A stretch of DNA of 64,000 nt, taken from positions 58,314 to 122,313 of the IMG/VR virus record IMGVR_UViG_3300035126_000842, one strand, 5' to 3'. Shown piece after piece: positions 4,109 to 61,410 of the stretch (within the stretch, counting starts at the first letter, position 1; each line of letters opens with the position of its first letter). Source of the DNA: a virus. Made by a program: the position numbers and the translations under genes. The notes beneath the pieces were generated by a model. That model was not told the DNA's origin and searched no databases. It saw only the letters and a list, made by a program, of their open reading frames with translations.

Positions 4109-7100
4109 TTAAGATTTAGGGTTATTAGGAGTACATGGTTTGTTAAATATAGCCTTAGCATCAACTTCAGGTAAGTTGTCCATATCTTTACCAGACCCAG
4201 ACGGTGTATCAATTTTTTCTCCTTCACCTGCAGATTCTTGTTTAAATGATAAGATCTTATTTTTGTTCTTAGAAACAGAATCTACAAAACTAGATATTGA
4301 TTGTGATTTAAGCTGAGGCTCTGCACCTATTGCAGAAAATACAAAGTAATTTAAATTATCACCAACAATTTTTTCAAGTACAATAAAGTTTGTTAAAGGA
4401 TTATTTAAATCAGTAATCGATACTGTTCCTAAACTAACATTAGCTAAGGTATTTATTACTTTTCGCAGAAACTGATTTTTATCCGAAACAGTAGTCCTTT
4501 CAGAATTGTAAAAACTTTCAAAGTAATTAAAAAGCTCGGTTGCTTTTGTATCAAGGTTATCTCTTAAGCTACTAAATTCTGAATAAAAAGGAGATTCTTT
4601 AGTTAATATTTTACTGAAAAGCTCAATGATTTCGTTTGAATTTAAACTACTAACATTAACACCACTTAATTCAGTTATAAGATTGGTTAGCAAAGATTCA
4701 TCAAAAATAATTCTATTAAAGAGATTCATTTTTAATCTGTAAAAAGCAGCTTCTGCTTCTACTACATCAGCACCTTTAAGTAAAACATCGCTAAAAGTTT
4801 GTCCTTCAGTTAATACTATGACTTTTTTATCAAATTCATTTTCAGCTGCTATATACTTAGCAACATCAGTCTCACCTGTTAAAATTCTATTACGTAATAT
4901 ATCACTACGTTGTTCACTTAAAACTGCAATATCAGCGTCTTTAATAAATCTTTTACTGCCTGTTACGTAAATTTTATTTGTATTTTTTTCATTTTTTCCT
5001 TGATTTATTTGATTTAAAACAGGATTGTACACTAAACTATCTAGATTTTCATAACCTACTTTTTTATTAAAAGCATTGATTATAGCAAATATATTTTCAT
5101 TTGTAAACTCCAAATCACCCGCAAAATTTTTTGTTTTATTTATTTCAGCAAGTCTGTTTAGCAATAAATCATCTACATCTATAAGAGTGTATTTTCTTTC
5201 ACTTTCAGGACGACTATTGTATTCTTGTACTAACCGTGTTTTTCCTATACCAGGAGTACCGTATATAAGTTTACCTACAAAAAACTCAAGGAAATCTTCT
5301 GTGGGTTTTATTATATTGTCTAATAAGTTTTTGTTTTTATCAAAAACAGATTTACTTATACCAAACCTAGCAACAAACATTTCTTTTTGCTCAGGAGATG
5401 TTGCTGTTTTGTATAAAGAAACCGCCTGTCTATTATCTTCATTAAGAAGTGTATTGTACCAATACTCAAATAAACCTGGGTTTGCATTAAAGAAATTATT
5501 AGAAAGCGTTGTTATCTCAGAAGGTTTACTTACAGAACCTTTTGTGTTGTTAAATACAAATACAGGAATTCCATTCACAGAAGTTACTGTTACAGAACCA
5601 ACCTGTTTATTGTCTTTGTATATAGGATAAGTAGTATCAAGTTTTATAGATGACACATTTCCTATACTAGACGTATTAGTTTGTGTAGCAGTTTCTGTAG
5701 CAACTGGTTCTTTTAAAGCAGCTAATTGTTTATAAGCATCACTATCTTTTCTACCAACTTTTTCAAGAGCTTGCATAGCTTGCTCTTTAGTCATTTCTCC
5801 TTTATTAACAGCATCTACATATTTTGCATCAGATATAGCGTTGATTCTATCGATATTTATTGGTAATTCTTTTTCAAGCTTATCAAGACTTTTTTGTCTA
5901 TCATCAATATTAAATTGATAAGTGCCATCTAAAGCTTCAAGTCCATTAGGATTATCTATTAATTTTTGTTTAAACGTTTCAATTCCTTTTAAATTAGTTC
6001 GTTTAGAAACATCATACTGTCTTTGATTTTCTTTTAACTCTTCCTGTCTTGTTTTTTCTATATCATCTATCTTAGCATCTACATTTGTCCCCGTAGGAGT
6101 TTCTTTTAAAGCAGCTAGTTCTCTTTCTAATTTAGCAATAGTTTCTTTTTGATCTTTTACAATTCTTTCTTGAGCATCTTTATTTGGATAATTTGGAGAT
6201 TCATATATTTGTAAACTTTGTTTAGCTTGATCTAACTTATACTCTAAATTTTCTTTTTTGTATAAGTCAAGGTAATTTTTAATATCACCTTCCATAAATT
6301 TATCCTGCTGATCAAGTCCCTTTACTTTATCTGCTGCTTCTAGTAAATCTATAAGTTCTTTTGGAGCATATTTTTCAACAACTTCTTTTCTCTTTTCAGG
6401 ACTTAATACAAGAGCATTTCCTGTTTTTGGATCAGATGCTTGAAACTCTCCATTAGATTGTTTTGGAAAAATAGACCACTGTCCTTTTTCAAAAAAAGCT
6501 AGAATATCAAAATTATCGCCTTTTAAAATTACTCTAAAATAAGCAGCTCCTTGAGCAGGCTCAAATAATCCTTTTACATTTTGTAATCCAAATTTTTTTC
6601 TTTTAGCTTCTATATCAGAAACAGGAGCTGGTTTTTCTTTCTTAGGTTTAGCAGTCCGTTTTTGAGTTTCCTCTTTTTCTTTTTTAGCATCTTCTAATCT
6701 AGCTTCTGTTTTTTGAGCACTAGGTTTAGCAGTTGGGGTAGGTGCTTTTTTAGTTTCTGGTGCGCGTTGTTCTCTTGTAGGTTTACTAGGTGCAGCTTTC
6801 TCTAACTTAATTTTATATAAATCAGGATATAATACTGCAAGTAAATTGTTAAGGTACCGTATTTGGTTGTTGTATTTTTGAACAACATTATACAAGTCAT
6901 CAAGACGTTCTTTTTCTTTTTGTTTAGCTCCTTCTACAATTTCTATAGAATCTAGATTATTTTCTATAGCTTTTTCAAGTTCGTCAGCTTGTTTCCTTAA
7001 TTTGTCGTATTCTGTTGTAGCAGAAGAATCCTCCGCATCGATTAACTTTCTTAGTTCTTCAGTGTTTAACCGTTTGAAGTTAGTATTCTTTTTAAATATT

Positions 7101-10100: not shown

Positions 10101-11914
10101 ACATGTTCAAATATAGATAATCTTTGCGCGTCTTTTGATAATTTAACATTACCTGTTTGACTAGCAGCATTCATTGTTTTGTTAGCAGCACTTTGTTGAG
10201 CAGCATTTACAGCATTAGGATTAAGTATGTCTGCATAACCTCTACCTAAATCTAAAAAGTTTTTATCAAGAAAATTAGCAGATTCTTCAAATCCTAATTT
10301 TAGTTTTTCTTTTTCCTCTTGATATGCTTTAAATTTTTCAGGATCGTAAATTCTTTGACCTGCTGTTAATCCTAAGTTTGCTAGCTTACCCATTCCCCCC
10401 ATTAAACCGCCCGTTAAGAAACCACTAAAGAAAGTTTCTAAACCTTGTGCTGTAAATTGTTCTCCTAACCCTAGTGCGACAGATTCTTTAAGCAGCATGT
10501 GCTGGTCTATCATAGGATTTTCAAATAGCTTGGTGTAATAATTTATAACACCGGCACTGGTAGCTTCCTGTAAATTTTCTTGAATTGCTTCTGCAAAGTT
10601 GTACCTGGTATAATTAAGAAATGATTTTCCTATTTCAGTAGGTCTAAGACCTGCTGATACTTTTTGCAAAGGAGTACTAAGATATTTATAACCTTGTCCT
10701 TTTATTTTAGAAATACTACCAAACTGATTAACTTCATCTAATGCACTTAATAAACCTGTACCTTTAGGTAATTGTTTTATGATATTATCTAATCCTACTT
10801 TATTAGAAAAGAAAATAAGAGGTAGATTTATCATCGTAGTAGCAAAAGCTGCATTTTCAGCAGCTGCTCTAATACCTGCAATTTTTTCTTCTGTAGGGTA
10901 TTGTCCTGTAGCATCATACTCTTTTCTTATTCCGTCTTCAACCATTTGATTGATAACAAGACCTCCTTCCATTTGAGCTTCATTAAGAACTCTAGCAGCT
11001 GCTCTTACATCCGCGTAAAAAGCACCAAAAGAAGTAGCTGTTTTACCAAGAGCATTTAATCCTTTAAAAGTTTCAGGATAATTTTTTAGTAAAGTTGCAG
11101 TATTTGAAAGAGGGTTAAAAAAATTAGCTACCGGACCATCTAAAGCTTTACCTATTTTACTAAAATCATATATGCTTTTAACTTCATCAGCATTTCTTGC
11201 TAATTTAAAAATAGTCTCGTTTGCATTAAATACTTTGTTTATATTTCTAACAAACTTACCAACATTAAGAGCTGTACCTGTAGCTAATAAACCAGCGCCA
11301 GGAGCAAGACCTATTCCTGAACTACTTAATAATCCAGCAGTTGCTGCAATAACAGCTTCTTCTATAATAGCACTACCTGCAATACCAAGAGTAATACCTG
11401 TATTAAGTAAAAAGTTATTAGTAAATGCACCAAACCCACCACTAGTGTCATATCCTAATTTCATCATTCTGGATATAGAACCAGCTGATTCTTCGTCATA
11501 GTTTAAAGGATCAAATAAATCTAAAGTAGAAATGAAAGGTTTATTAGAAGCAAACGATTCCATTGCTATATGACCCATTGCTTTAGCAGATCTCCCTAAA
11601 TTTGACATCCAAGAACTATTCTCATTATATAGTCTATCGTTATCTCTCCAAGGTGAATAACCTAATCTGCTAAAATTAGGGTGCATATAGTACCTTTCAA
11701 ATGTAAGATTCATTTGAGAATCACCATATACTGAAGGAACACCTCCTGATGTAGAAACCAAAGACGGTGTAGTCTTAATGTTTTCTTTTAACATCTGAGC
11801 TGCAACATCTCCATTAAAAGTAGTATTCTGTGGAGCGCCCGTTACATTACCAAATTGATAAGCGCTATATATAGCAGAATCTATATCTTTTTGTAAATCG
11901 CTAAAATTATCCAT
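4109..11914 (-). CDS. 2601-aa giant protein with PD-(D/E)XK nuclease and P-loop motifs
   Basis: The N-terminal region has a long small/hydrophobic Ala-Gly stretch near residues 165-220 that could associate with membrane. Around residues 1200-1235 the pattern GTPDIL followed by LLIDLKTS matches the core of a PD-(D/E)XK nuclease. Residues about 1300-2100 are extremely Lys/Glu/Gln-rich and probably coiled coil. At about 2215-2250 a Walker A (YGTPGIGKT) is followed by a Walker B-like LIDVDDLLL, suggesting a C-terminal P-loop NTPase. The start codon overlaps the stop of the upstream 961-aa gene (TAATG), implying translational coupling. Very long multidomain proteins at this place are typical of crAss-like phages, where several are packaged in the virion. 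Nuclease plus ATPase on one injected chain suggests handling of host or phage DNA early in infection, but that role is inferred. Confidence 0.88.
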   Translation of the reverse strand: MDNFSDLQKDIDSAIYSAYQFGNVTGAPQNTTFNGDVAAQMLKENIKTTPSLVSTSGGVPSVYGDSQMNLTFERYYMHPNFSRLGYSPWRDNDRLYNENSSWMSNLGRSAKAMGHIAMESFASNKPFISTLDLFDPLNYDEESAGSISRMMKLGYDTSGGFGAFTNNFLLNTGITLGIAGSAIIEEAVIAATAGLLSSSGIGLAPGAGLLATGTALNVGKFVRNINKVFNANETIFKLARNADEVKSIYDFSKIGKALDGPVANFFNPLSNTATLLKNYPETFKGLNALGKTATSFGAFYADVRAAARVLNEAQMEGGLVINQMVEDGIRKEYDATGQYPTEEKIAGIRAAAENAAFATTMINLPLIFFSNKVGLDNIIKQLPKGTGLLSALDEVNQFGSISKIKGQGYKYLSTPLQKVSAGLRPTEIGKSFLNYTRYNFAEAIQENLQEATSAGVINYYTKLFENPMIDQHMLLKESVALGLGEQFTAQGLETFFSGFLTGGLMGGMGKLANLGLTAGQRIYDPEKFKAYQEEKEKLKLGFEESANFLDKNFLDLGRGYADILNPNAVNAAQQSAANKTMNAASQTGNVKLSKDAQRLSIFEHVSNAIKGGFYNNLVDDYRSQLELDDKSLAEAFGKDITEVPQLRSDIAKAISGAESIKKLHDKYNFVNPVSLKGVDKKDPMYAKLLAKKNAIETVRKMLIMAEDTIMDGTARKSKMLESMMTMLPEFGEIDSDDVLVLVDSFRLNGYKIDQLIQEIELAKSTQSSPTTTPEDREKAKVKENYLKQKIAALQELAKKFDSFRTKIKSNTEFTDEERQNLLNDYKLYIDLLNKNPERKSSVVKTENINESLNYILDYISLESENELLTSIISVLQDPQGFATTVNDTTDYLEKILNDASFVANMVNRGVSLLEHNALYNFMFSTYGVFINEYEDGSVDFIKPSADVTDSVIPVDRLSDEYDELLNAFYDKKVALSKVDKETEKLKEKKKKAAEQLSKDKKDFERIKDKIRKSNSGLSDEAVEALAKSIFNSPLRFSFVSAIDKFDKLAQNIENAASTPTTKEEIEEALELLNNAKFKIVKDPDTKRSYYVQVDEEGNPIDGTLEWIRVTSLYRTKEFATEKFSHRGNIIDGLLRTLIGDKTISKEKFKEAYSQLQKENPEAFEFTDANLDTLRSVLENFISNIEAQGYTLRADIPTLWGKIDGQFVAGTPDILAINDKGEALLIDLKTSSSDRRKAYAMEAALKKIAGDKYDLVKEKIIENQNKIVSKDKNLRDDPEVGEIITNFLSIEENGIKPYFDVKSIFFYRDSDENQLNSYADLLEQRTGIKVTGLFILPLTIQDSNKTKAYTKIEASVDSSSGTKRLALKVGRKQPPIPKAEEEIKSEEGLAEEEKKKEEVSEEEVKKPVDASLLSLEERIELINNTIGILEKRKERGEQSITNVENTLEYLNELLDETSELGFEEVKKILNTIKTLEEAISSNSARKSKRGQNITLSIEEYKKQFRTEKQLFNDIANRIKYLKEDLEQLKKIDKDLSDQINYYRNMIANKNFETLSFEEIEEKIETINKKKSVLEKIIASLVKAIKQSVFYLKEYVRITTKAINDLEIFKKNTNFKRLNTEELRKLIDAEDSSATTEYDKLRKQADELEKAIENNLDSIEIVEGAKQKEKERLDDLYNVVQKYNNQIRYLNNLLAVLYPDLYKIKLEKAAPSKPTREQRAPETKKAPTPTAKPSAQKTEARLEDAKKEKEETQKRTAKPKKEKPAPVSDIEAKRKKFGLQNVKGLFEPAQGAAYFRVILKGDNFDILAFFEKGQWSIFPKQSNGEFQASDPKTGNALVLSPEKRKEVVEKYAPKELIDLLEAADKVKGLDQQDKFMEGDIKNYLDLYKKENLEYKLDQAKQSLQIYESPNYPNKDAQERIVKDQKETIAKLERELAALKETPTGTNVDAKIDDIEKTRQEELKENQRQYDVSKRTNLKGIETFKQKLIDNPNGLEALDGTYQFNIDDRQKSLDKLEKELPINIDRINAISDAKYVDAVNKGEMTKEQAMQALEKVGRKDSDAYKQLAALKEPVATETATQTNTSSIGNVSSIKLDTTYPIYKDNKQVGSVTVTSVNGIPVFVFNNTKGSVSKPSEITTLSNNFFNANPGLFEYWYNTLLNEDNRQAVSLYKTATSPEQKEMFVARFGISKSVFDKNKNLLDNIIKPTEDFLEFFVGKLIYGTPGIGKTRLVQEYNSRPESERKYTLIDVDDLLLNRLAEINKTKNFAGDLEFTNENIFAIINAFNKKVGYENLDSLVYNPVLNQINQGKNEKNTNKIYVTGSKRFIKDADIAVLSEQRSDILRNRILTGETDVAKYIAAENEFDKKVIVLTEGQTFSDVLLKGADVVEAEAAFYRLKMNLFNRIIFDESLLTNLITELSGVNVSSLNSNEIIELFSKILTKESPFYSEFSSLRDNLDTKATELFNYFESFYNSERTTVSDKNQFLRKVINTLANVSLGTVSITDLNNPLTNFIVLEKIVGDNLNYFVFSAIGAEPQLKSQSISSFVDSVSKNKNKILSFKQESAGEGEKIDTPSGSGKDMDNLPEVDAKAIFNKPCTPNNPKS

Positions 11915-14799
11915 TATTTAATTCTTAGTAAATTATACAATTCTGTTTTTGAAACAAAGTCTGTTTGTAAATTTTGATTCTCGTTTGCTACTTTATTATT
12001 TTTAGTAGCTATTCCTGTAGAAATACTTTTAACACCCTGTAATATATATTCTTCAGGATCACTACTTCCTATTGGTATGTAACTGTTACCTTTAAAAACT
12101 CCATTAAAGTTTAGATAACTATAGATCTGACCATCTTCTGCTCTAAAAAGATTTAATTCATAGCTATCTCCCGAAATAGGATCTTCAACAGTTTGAGTTA
12201 TTTTTCCCCCTCCTTTGAGTACAGTATTTGCTGCATTAAAATTAGAAGTAGCATTTACAAAACTACTCCTATCTGAATTTTTATCTACTTCTACAATAAT
12301 TTGAGAAACTTCTTTTACGTTTTTACCTGTCGTTTTTGCTATTGCTTCTGCTGTAGTAGGAGCAATATTTATTTTATAAAGTACTTTAGAATCATCATAT
12401 TCTTTTTTGTATGTAAGATTTTCGCTTCTTTCAATACTATTGATTTGCAGTACATTACTTTTTTGAGGATTTGAAAAACCTGCTTTTAATTGAGCTATAA
12501 CATCGGCACCAACTTCAAGTTCTTCATATTTATTTCCATCGGGATAATAAAACTTTATTTTACTTCCGGGTTCATTAGTAGCTACATTATATAAACTTTC
12601 GAGCATAGAAAGAGTAGTTTTTTTCTCAGGTGTCGTATCCGTACTACTAACTGTTGTAGGAATACCTATAGCAGGGTAAGATATTACAGGATTGCCTAAT
12701 TGATCTAATTTCAAATCAGCACCTATTATTTTAGGTTTAGTCGTTGAAGAATTATATGCTTTTGATTTAGCTCTAGTTAAAATATCTTGTAGTTCTAATA
12801 AAGTACCTAACTTTTTATTGAACATTTTTGTAGAACTAATTTTTTCAAAAAGAGGTGTTAATACTAAACCTAACGGATTTGTCATTTCTGCACTACTAGA
12901 AGTAGAGGGTGTTTCTTTTATTATTAACTCCTTTAAAGCATCTTCATTAATACCTTTGCTTCCGTCTTCTGATGAAAATAATTTTTTTATTTCTGCTTGA
13001 CTAAAGATATTACTGGACGCTATAGTTTGCATTAATTCAGTAAATTCTGGATTCGTCATCAATCTTGCATAAACTAAAATTCTATTATTATTAAAAGCAC
13101 TTATTGCTTCTTTAGAAGCAGTTTCATTTAAATCTATTGAAGTTTTTAATGCTGTTAATTGTCCTTGAATATTAGGAACTGTTGTAGAAGCTGTTTTAGC
13201 CATAGCATCACTTACACTTCTGTACAACATAGTTAATGTAGAAACTTTACCTTTAGGTCCATCTTGCAATGTTTTAGGATCTAAATTTTGTAACTCTTCC
13301 ATGTTATATACAGCACCATCTTGTTTTTTAAACAACTTAGCCCTATCTGCAGGACTTAAATTTTGATATAGTGTTATAAGATATTCTTTTTGTCCTTTTT
13401 GAGCTTGAGTAGCATAAGCGAGCGCTTGATCTCTATTATGTTTTTCTATTTCATCTATAGGTCTTGTAGCACTTTCACCTTGATTCATAAGTTGTACTCC
13501 TCCTTCAGGAGTAACACCAGGTATATTTGCAGCATTTTCAAGGTTAAATTTAAACTGCTCTTTAGCCATATCCATGCGAGCTCTAAGTATGATATTATCT
13601 TTATCATTTTGATCTCTCATTTTTTCTATAGCAACATCATAATTAAACTTTTGCTCATTTACTGCAAAAGGGTTAGCGTCTATATCAACTTCTTTTTTAA
13701 GTGCACTATAAGATTTAGCAAAAGACCTTATTTGATTGCTTAATAAAAGTGAAGATACTTGGTTATCAATTTGAGCAGCGTTTGCATTTTCTTTAAATGA
13801 TTCAAATTCTTGTTGTCTTTCTAAAATACTTTCTTTATTAGATTCAAGCATTTCAATTATTTGACTAAATTGTTCAATTCGTTGCATTGTTCTACTGCCT
13901 TTTGGTACTTTACCACCAGACGCATCAACAAGTTGTTTAGCTTGAAACTGTATTTTTTCTATAGAAGTATTAATGTTTTTTAAATCTTCAGCGGTTGATT
14001 TATCTATACTTGTTAAAATTTCTTCATTATATTTTATATCAGCTTCTGCTCTAGGTAGTCCTGAACTTCTTATAAATCTTTCTCTTTGAACAGAAGCTTT
14101 ATTTCTCATGTACTCTTGCACTTGAGGATCTGAAGCAATAGCATTATGTAAAATACTATTAAGATGTGCTTGTACTTCATCTCCCATTTTAGTTTTTACA
14201 ATCCATTGTCCTTGAACTTCAGTAACTTTAGCACTAGGTTCTATTTCTTTTATAAGATCAGTAAGTCTTTTAGGTATTTTAGGATCATATACGTATCTTA
14301 TAGGATTAGCTTTAAGCGCTTCTTCAGGAGTCATGTTCTTAAAATTTTCTAACCAATAATTTATAGCTTCTTCACTCTCTGGGTTGTAACCATCATTACA
14401 TTTTTTAGGATCAGCACACTCTCTTGCGTCATATCCTTTTTGTAATTCTGCAGCTGCAATTTTAGTTGCAGCTACATCTTTTAAAAAAAGTTGGTTATTA
14501 ATAAGCGGGTCAAATATTCTTTCTGCTACTGAAACATTTTGAGGTTTGCTAAGATCTACAGTAGAAATCTGCTTTATTGCTTTATCAGCAGCTTTCATAA
14601 AAGCTTTTCTAGTTTCTTTAGTATCATCTCTAGAAAGCTTTGCGTTTAATAAACTATCTTGTATGCTTTTTATTTTAGCATAATTAGCATCGTACTGTGA
14701 TTGTTTAATTTTAAGAGTCTGTTGAATTAACCCTAAATCTGGTATATCGTTCTGAAACTGAGGTATATAATCAGTTACGCCAGGAATAAAAGTAGCCAT
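11914..14799 (-). CDS. 961-aa conserved crAss-like internal virion (cargo) protein candidate
   Basis: A hydrophilic 961-residue protein starting MATFIPGVTDYIPQFQND. It is rich in Gln, Asn, Lys and Glu, with long predicted helices over residues 250-420 and no enzyme motif I can name. A small cysteine pair sits in ARECADPKKCND near residue 125. It lies between a gene family with virion-like signatures and the 2601-aa gene, whose ATG overlaps its stop by one base. Genes at this position in crAss-like phages encode proteins packaged in the capsid, so I call it a cargo candidate from context. A perfect RNA hairpin (with one G-U pair) ends at the base before the ATG and may limit translation initiation. 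Confidence 0.85.
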   Translation of the reverse strand: MATFIPGVTDYIPQFQNDIPDLGLIQQTLKIKQSQYDANYAKIKSIQDSLLNAKLSRDDTKETRKAFMKAADKAIKQISTVDLSKPQNVSVAERIFDPLINNQLFLKDVAATKIAAAELQKGYDARECADPKKCNDGYNPESEEAINYWLENFKNMTPEEALKANPIRYVYDPKIPKRLTDLIKEIEPSAKVTEVQGQWIVKTKMGDEVQAHLNSILHNAIASDPQVQEYMRNKASVQRERFIRSSGLPRAEADIKYNEEILTSIDKSTAEDLKNINTSIEKIQFQAKQLVDASGGKVPKGSRTMQRIEQFSQIIEMLESNKESILERQQEFESFKENANAAQIDNQVSSLLLSNQIRSFAKSYSALKKEVDIDANPFAVNEQKFNYDVAIEKMRDQNDKDNIILRARMDMAKEQFKFNLENAANIPGVTPEGGVQLMNQGESATRPIDEIEKHNRDQALAYATQAQKGQKEYLITLYQNLSPADRAKLFKKQDGAVYNMEELQNLDPKTLQDGPKGKVSTLTMLYRSVSDAMAKTASTTVPNIQGQLTALKTSIDLNETASKEAISAFNNNRILVYARLMTNPEFTELMQTIASSNIFSQAEIKKLFSSEDGSKGINEDALKELIIKETPSTSSSAEMTNPLGLVLTPLFEKISSTKMFNKKLGTLLELQDILTRAKSKAYNSSTTKPKIIGADLKLDQLGNPVISYPAIGIPTTVSSTDTTPEKKTTLSMLESLYNVATNEPGSKIKFYYPDGNKYEELEVGADVIAQLKAGFSNPQKSNVLQINSIERSENLTYKKEYDDSKVLYKINIAPTTAEAIAKTTGKNVKEVSQIIVEVDKNSDRSSFVNATSNFNAANTVLKGGGKITQTVEDPISGDSYELNLFRAEDGQIYSYLNFNGVFKGNSYIPIGSSDPEEYILQGVKSISTGIATKNNKVANENQNLQTDFVSKTELYNLLRIK

Positions 14800-60643: not shown

Positions 60644-60669
60644 CCTACTATAGTAACTATATTAATTTA

Positions 60670-61056: not shown

Positions 61057-61068
61057 TCTATTAATTTA

Positions 61069-61081
61069 AATATCAATTGAA
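61069..61081 (+). promoter_or_regulatory. Element 8 (AATATCAATTGAA) before a non-coding unit
   Basis: One base off consensus (A for T). It lies two bases before the candidate ncRNA start at 61083, with no gene between it and the poly-T at 61220. Confidence 0.72.
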
Positions 61082-61082
61082 T

Positions 61083-61220
61083 ACTAGATATTGTGGTAAT
61101 TGTTGTGTACATTGCATCCTTTCTAGAGGGTTGCATTGATTAGTCCTACTGTTATAATAAGAACAGCATGAAAACATCGCCAAAGGTGTGGGGCATAACA
61201 GTTACTACAGTATTTTTTTT
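61083..61220 (+). ncRNA. Candidate structured ncRNA with 22-bp closing stem and poly-U end
   Basis: 61086-61107 pairs without interruption with 61194-61215 (22 bp, including several G-U pairs, so RNA-level). Inside are three hairpins: TGCA-CCTTT/GAGGG-TGCA (61112-61136), CTGTT/AACAG (about 61149-61166) and CGCC/GGTG (about 61178-61188), giving a four-way-junction shape. Eight T (61213-61220) follow the closing stem as in a terminator. It has its own promoter-like element, and no credible reading frame is present. Function unknown. Confidence 0.7.
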
Positions 61221-61221
61221 A

Positions 61222-61380
61222 ACTGTATAAGGGAGTATTGTTTTCCTATATATATAGTAAAAAGAGAACAAAGCGGGGGAAATTTTCGCTAGTGTACATA
61301 TGGTGTATATATATCGTATCGTGTGCGTAGCGAAAACTTGCGTATTACTCCTATATATATAGTGTAGTACTATTCGTACT
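61222..61380 (+). other. Second structured non-coding stretch with CCTATATATATAGT direct repeat
   Basis: ACTGTATA (61222-61229) can pair with TATATAGT (61356-61363), GGAGTA (61232-61237) with TACTCC (61346-61351), and TTTTCGCTA (61283-61291) with TAGCGAAAA (61328-61336). CCTATATATATAGT occurs twice (about 61244-61257 and 61350-61363), each self-complementary. AGTAC/GTACT lies at 61366-61380. It may be part of a longer RNA, a leader of the next gene, or a DNA-level site. Confidence 0.45.
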
Positions 61381-61397
61381 TAATATCTAATAATTTA

Positions 61398-61410
61398 AAT
61401 ATCACCCGAA
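61398..61410 (+). promoter_or_regulatory. Element 9, variant (AATATCACCCGAA)
   Basis: Same frame as the family but with CCC in place of TTT. The preceding TAATTTAA block matches elements 7 and 8. It may define a second promoter class. Confidence 0.65.

Follow-up and report, generated by a model that had tools for sequence, protein, structure and literature searches.

The RNA locus and its genomic setting

The window, the 64 kb stretch of DNA analysed here, covers the right-hand part of a viral record of 122 kb. The terminase, portal, capsid and nuclease of this phage are related to crAss-like counterparts by PHROG and tblastn matches, and its large terminase is full-length and of the crAss type; the conserved portal, terminase and capsid genes by which a crAss-like origin is recognised are all found. 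The structural genes lie on the minus strand. Beyond a divergent switch, small genes that include one for a single-strand DNA binding protein occupy the plus strand around a candidate noncoding RNA gene (61083-61222, plus strand). The early genes of crAss001 occupy the right genome end, and in phi14:2 the virion RNA polymerase transcribes an early operon of similar organisation (PMC8375218). Because of these parallels and of a promoter element shared with the neighbouring genes, we infer that the region holding the RNA is early.

The gene, with a predicted transcript of about 135-140 nt, is supported by its fold, by 15 other members of the family and by covariation. A reading of the sequence alone had described an uninterrupted 22-bp closing helix with several G-U pairs, three enclosed hairpins, a promoter-like element of its own and a terminal T8, and each of these features was recovered. 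In the closing helix, P1, all 22 positions of 61086-61107/61194-61215 are paired, five of them as G-U, and an extra U-G pair extends it to 23 uninterrupted pairs (5' strand 61086-61108, 3' strand 61193-61215, both plus strand). The assignment of both strands rests on this pair count and on relatives, in which 8 of 8 inner pairs show two-sided change. Among helices of at least 18 pairs enclosing 40-140 nt, P1 is the longest in the 64 kb on either strand; one further such helix, of 19 pairs, occurs in the window (0-2 in shuffled windows), and with the same enclosed length neither strand has a second helix that reaches 20 pairs. The segment 61083-61230 folds at -45.5 kcal/mol (z = -4.43), and 0 of 200 shuffles came as low. 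ARAGORN detected no tRNA or tmRNA.

In the window fold P1 encloses three hairpins, all on the plus strand. P2 (61110-61138; stem 61110-61119/61129-61138) carries the loop palindrome UCUAGA at 61122-61127. P4 (61149-61166; CUGUU-AUAAUAAG-AACAG) is the most conserved part, with four invariant pairs and two-sided change at two, and P5 (61174-61189; ACAUC-GCCAAA-GGUGU) shows two-sided change at four of its five pairs. Hairpins 2 and 3 are joined by a short helix, P3, in which CCU at 61145-61147 pairs with GGG at 61190-61192 (both plus strand) and which was recognised through comparison with relatives. The T8 run itself is read directly from the sequence at 61213-61220 (plus strand); together with P1 it looks like an intrinsic terminator. 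L014, the near relative, has this T run too; record L028 has none after the RNA.

Upstream, the promoter-like element TTAATTTAAATATCAATTGAAT (61061-61082, plus strand) is common to the adjacent early gene cassettes. The copy at 61061, TTAATTTAAATATCANNTGAAT, has no mismatch to the promoter-like pattern, and the motif recurs at 60662 and 61390; shuffled windows gave 2-5 matches at a loose cut-off of four mismatches, with all mismatch classes pooled. In L014 the motif is found at four places with 0-2 mismatches, one of them before that record's copy of the RNA. A promoter and terminator of its own are not universal among members, since some heads (members E, G, H and I) sit within another RNA, described below as a shell, and L028 has no T run. 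Between the RNA and the next gene, the stretch 61230-61400 is AT-rich and holds more inverted repeats (TTTTCGCTA...TAGCGAAAA). Conservation with L014 covers the first part of this stretch (CTGTATAAGGGAGT, TATATATATAGTA).

Relatives, conserved anatomy and covariation

Comparison by blastn with annotated phages gave zero matches, and the neighbouring ORFs used as protein queries found no relatives. L014 is a near relative, whose terminase protein is 100% identical to that of the window phage and whose RNA region has 74% DNA identity, with pairs kept through the changes. A distant relative in a different phage was found with a pattern drawn from the invariant 3' part, and its closing helix is unrelated in sequence yet complementary. 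From these three sequences we built a covariance model, R1, and scanned records fetched through the neighbouring nuclease gene and two further patterns. In total, 15 further distinct members were found in 23 other viral records, giving 16 with the window's own once duplicates had been removed; the 13 members outside the R1 training set match at E values of about 1e-15 to 5e-4. Three kinds of candidate were set aside: two bacterial-genome pattern matches that did not fit the covariance model, a weak match in L058 with only a P2-like hairpin in common, and L050 1291-1374, which has the right place and strand, a similar fold and the palindrome ACCGGU and was not counted at E 0.03-0.18.

Of 20 further RNA-bearing records, several of them short fragments, 14 yielded a portal gene, and wherever found it is crAss-like. 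Where a record holds both, the RNA and the portal are always on opposite strands and separated by 5-12 kb, with one convincing RNA match per record. The RNA-bearing phage group is wide at the sequence level, because the portals range from 61% identity (window against L045) down to barely detectable similarity (profile E 2e-23). No convincing copy, and none at E < 0.1, was found in ten named phage records, mostly gut crAss-like, that had been chosen by capsid or nuclease similarity (among them Carjivirus communis, crAss002, cr106_1, cr116_1, cr110_1, cr8_1, csAssE-Sib and phi17:2). Many environmental crAss-like records, many of those fragments, are also without a copy.

Across members, the sequence of P1 is entirely different between phages while complementarity is retained; conservation is seen in the inner head. 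The stem of the P2 hairpin varies. P3 encloses P4 and P5 and is 100% paired in the 16 members; in L118 its first pair has undergone a two-sided swap from C-G to G-C. The P4 consensus, CUGUY/RACAG, is nearly invariant. The sequence of P5 changes freely, and its GCCAAA loop is conserved in most members of the window's type. Conserved unpaired bases, CUUG or CAUG followed by an A-rich joint, complete the head.

The alignments behind the pair counts were either structure-fitted or hand-made. In the model-based alignment of 16 members, which leans towards the structure, 96.0% of cells are paired and 23 of 32 pairs show two-sided changes; controls in which partners were slid by one to three columns gave 36-48% paired cells and 4-9 pairs with two-sided change. 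The hand alignment, set against a tree-based null, yields 9 significant pairs out of 33 (seven of the eight in P1 and two in P5) and only 2 significant non-pair column combinations. Closing arms cut at a fixed distance from the conserved hairpins, rather than by pairing, bind their cognate partners at -15.6 to -35.6 kcal/mol, and arms of different clades average -9.6. One low between-clade value, -31.2, may come from parS-like arms shared by L112 and L151. On the plus strand many pairs are G-U and few positions show an A-C mismatch, so it is the RNA, not a DNA palindrome, on which selection acts.

Neither the window nor the RNA loci of the relatives gave an Rfam match above the gathering threshold, and permissive settings yielded weak, chance-level matches only, outside the element. 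The sequence-only reading had proposed a previously unrecognised noncoding RNA, with covariation in homologues and an Rfam search as checks. The lack of a known-family match, the distant relatives and the pairing kept through two-sided changes strongly support that proposal, and we regard the window element as belonging to a real, uncatalogued RNA family on comparative grounds.

Known RNA families and possible roles

Of the 15 P2 loops listed, 9 contain a hexamer palindrome; six carry UCUAGA, one carries ACUAGU, and those of the L045/L120 type carry UUGCAA. The loops with none are those of members G, J, K, M, N and O, and the chance of a hexamer palindrome in a shuffled loop is 4-19%. The UCCUUUCUAGAG of the P2 loop presumably resembles the 3' end of Bacteroidota 16S rRNA; this likeness is probably a coincidence, as other members alter these bases and several of them keep a palindrome. 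Palindrome switching has been used as an argument for symmetric kissing loops in OLE and GOLLD (PMC12286853). The loops are suggestive of homodimers formed through P2, with modest support because of the 4-19% chance per loop and the six members without a palindrome.

Several known RNAs share parts of this design. Like 6S RNA, the window RNA has an end-to-end closing helix and falls in a similar length class, but its core is filled by P2, P3, P4 and P5, whereas 6S has a large, open single-stranded central bubble between its closing and terminal stems. A 6S-like role, one of the functions first suggested for the element, finds no support given this branched core and the missing Rfam match. The phi29 pRNA is likewise a phage RNA with a helix junction and possible loop-mediated multimers. 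It belongs to another phage group with another terminase, in contrast to the crAss-type terminase, portal and capsid found here, and its model gives no match. The pRNA multimerises through two different interlocking loops, whereas the loop of the window RNA is self-complementary. Bacterial Y RNA, the partner of Ro (TROVE), shares a long end-pairing stem and a branched head, and the early genes of crAss001 include one for a TROVE-domain protein (PMC8375218). The Y RNA reading prompted by that gene was rejected because a TROVE gene was absent from all 31 records searched, including the window phage and several fragments, and was detected in one control genome; the search covered genes on the phage side. 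GOLLD and ROOL are also phage-encoded structured RNAs of unknown function with possible symmetric loop-loop contacts backed by palindrome switching (PMC12286853). They differ in length (more than 600 nt against about 135 nt), in fold and in setting, as the window RNA lies in the putative early region of a window with no tRNA genes; their Rfam models, too, gave no match.

We consider it somewhat probable that the RNA is a stand-alone, trans-acting early noncoding RNA that serves a group of environmental crAss-like phages as a dimeric protein-binding scaffold or decoy in host takeover. In the window phage, transcription would begin early in infection at an early-gene promoter element belonging to the RNA itself. 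The two ends of the RNA would pair as P1 and so be protected, and P1 with the U-tract would terminate transcription. P1 would merely hold the ends together, leaving its length and sequence free to change, and the conserved inner head would consist of P2 and a three-way unit of P3, P4 and P5 around the near-invariant unpaired bases. Most likely, two molecules would pair by way of their self-complementary P2 loops and the head would be recognised by a protein of the host or the phage, with the RNA acting as a dimeric scaffold or decoy while the host is taken over.

Action in trans, rather than as a leader, is most likely because comparison between clades found no common adjacent downstream gene and because the window unit has its own promoter element and terminator. 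That the element might instead be a cis-acting riboswitch or leader controlling the next gene seems improbable to us. It does lie between genes on the coding strand, and in some relatives an ORF starts 1-50 nt downstream. The genes that follow are unrelated between clades, however, and this absence of a conserved downstream gene counts against a riboswitch or leader class; in the window, moreover, the unit is ended by P1 and T8, and a separate promoter element at 61390 serves the next gene. One special case of the trans-acting scaffold or decoy would be a counter-defence RNA, a possible role also raised by the sequence-only reading, for example one that lures away a defence nuclease or imitates a CRISPR repeat. 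The position amid fast-changing small genes of the early region fits this idea, as does a compact, end-sealed RNA with a highly conserved head; yet neither a defence target nor complementarity to one was found, one head conserved over divergent phages would be unusual for the decoy of a host-specific system, and we hold this specific role to be rather unlikely.

The predicted loop-loop multimer would also suit a packaging RNA working with the terminase in the manner of phi29 pRNA, a function that had been put forward from the sequence alone. This role is unsupported and very doubtful: there is no Rfam match, the phage encodes a full-length crAss-type large terminase and a portal, a copy at E < 0.1 is missing from all ten of the named related phages examined, and the gene is located on the early strand, outside the packaging module. 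Scarcely credible, finally, is a DNA-level inverted repeat, such as a partition or replication site, with no RNA role. In its favour, L112 and L151 have parS-like TGTTTCACGTGGAACA within their outer arms, but such arms were not seen in other members, the inner hairpins covary, and the G-U pairs that are retained break the DNA palindrome.

Shell RNAs and wider meaning

A second RNA family was observed among the relatives, a shell (UAAUGCACCAUAACUCACUUCCCAAGGGUGAGCAGUUGUA...UACAACUGAGUGCAGAGGG) that carries different structured inserts. Its outer stem, UGCAC/GUGCA, is accompanied by an inner stem and a side hairpin, and the stems show paired changes, for example from UGCAC/GUGCA to UGCGU/ACGCA. 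Shell loci, all on the minus strand, lie at L127:485-632, L120:10285-10400, L041:5330-5480, L042:4156-4306, L061:5693-5856 and L014:8275-8420, the last about 3.8 kb downstream of the L014 copy of the window RNA. In several relatives the head of the window RNA family is embedded in the shell, and elsewhere the shell carries unrelated structured inserts. None was seen in the window phage, the record of which ends before the corresponding point. A tentative and less probable extension of these observations is a modular set of early RNAs, in which interchangeable heads, displayed on a shared end-sealing shell or stem, would dimerise and bind host proteins.

Other features were noted in the same records. 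More end-paired structured stretches lie beside the RNA at about 5400-5720 (minus strand) of L045 and at L154:850-1500 (for example TACTAATGTTACA...TGTAACATTAGTA), and L154 has a second CGGTTGCAAACGG hairpin; these stretches are possible arrays of early RNAs. Downstream of the RNA in L028, about 700 bases (6400-7100) hold no ORF of at least 60 aa and give no Rfam match, and are possibly another structured RNA. The same record, a crAss-like phage contig, carries a tmRNA gene with a tag peptide (11737-12161, plus strand). In L101 a pistol ribozyme (5714-5776, plus strand) stands immediately upstream of the RNA, and the parS-like TGTTTCACGTGGAACA arms of L112 and L151 are perhaps a partition site or its mimic.

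No structured noncoding RNA was found reported for crAss-like phages in the literature covered, which took in a minority of subscription papers. Few known viruses are as abundant as crAss-like phages, and a putatively early-region RNA with clear covariation offers a defined molecule whose possible part in host takeover can be probed. If the modular arrangement is true, these early RNAs would constitute a new RNA-based takeover system of crAss-like phages. The window RNA family is also a small, tractable addition to the few phage RNAs that may form multimers.
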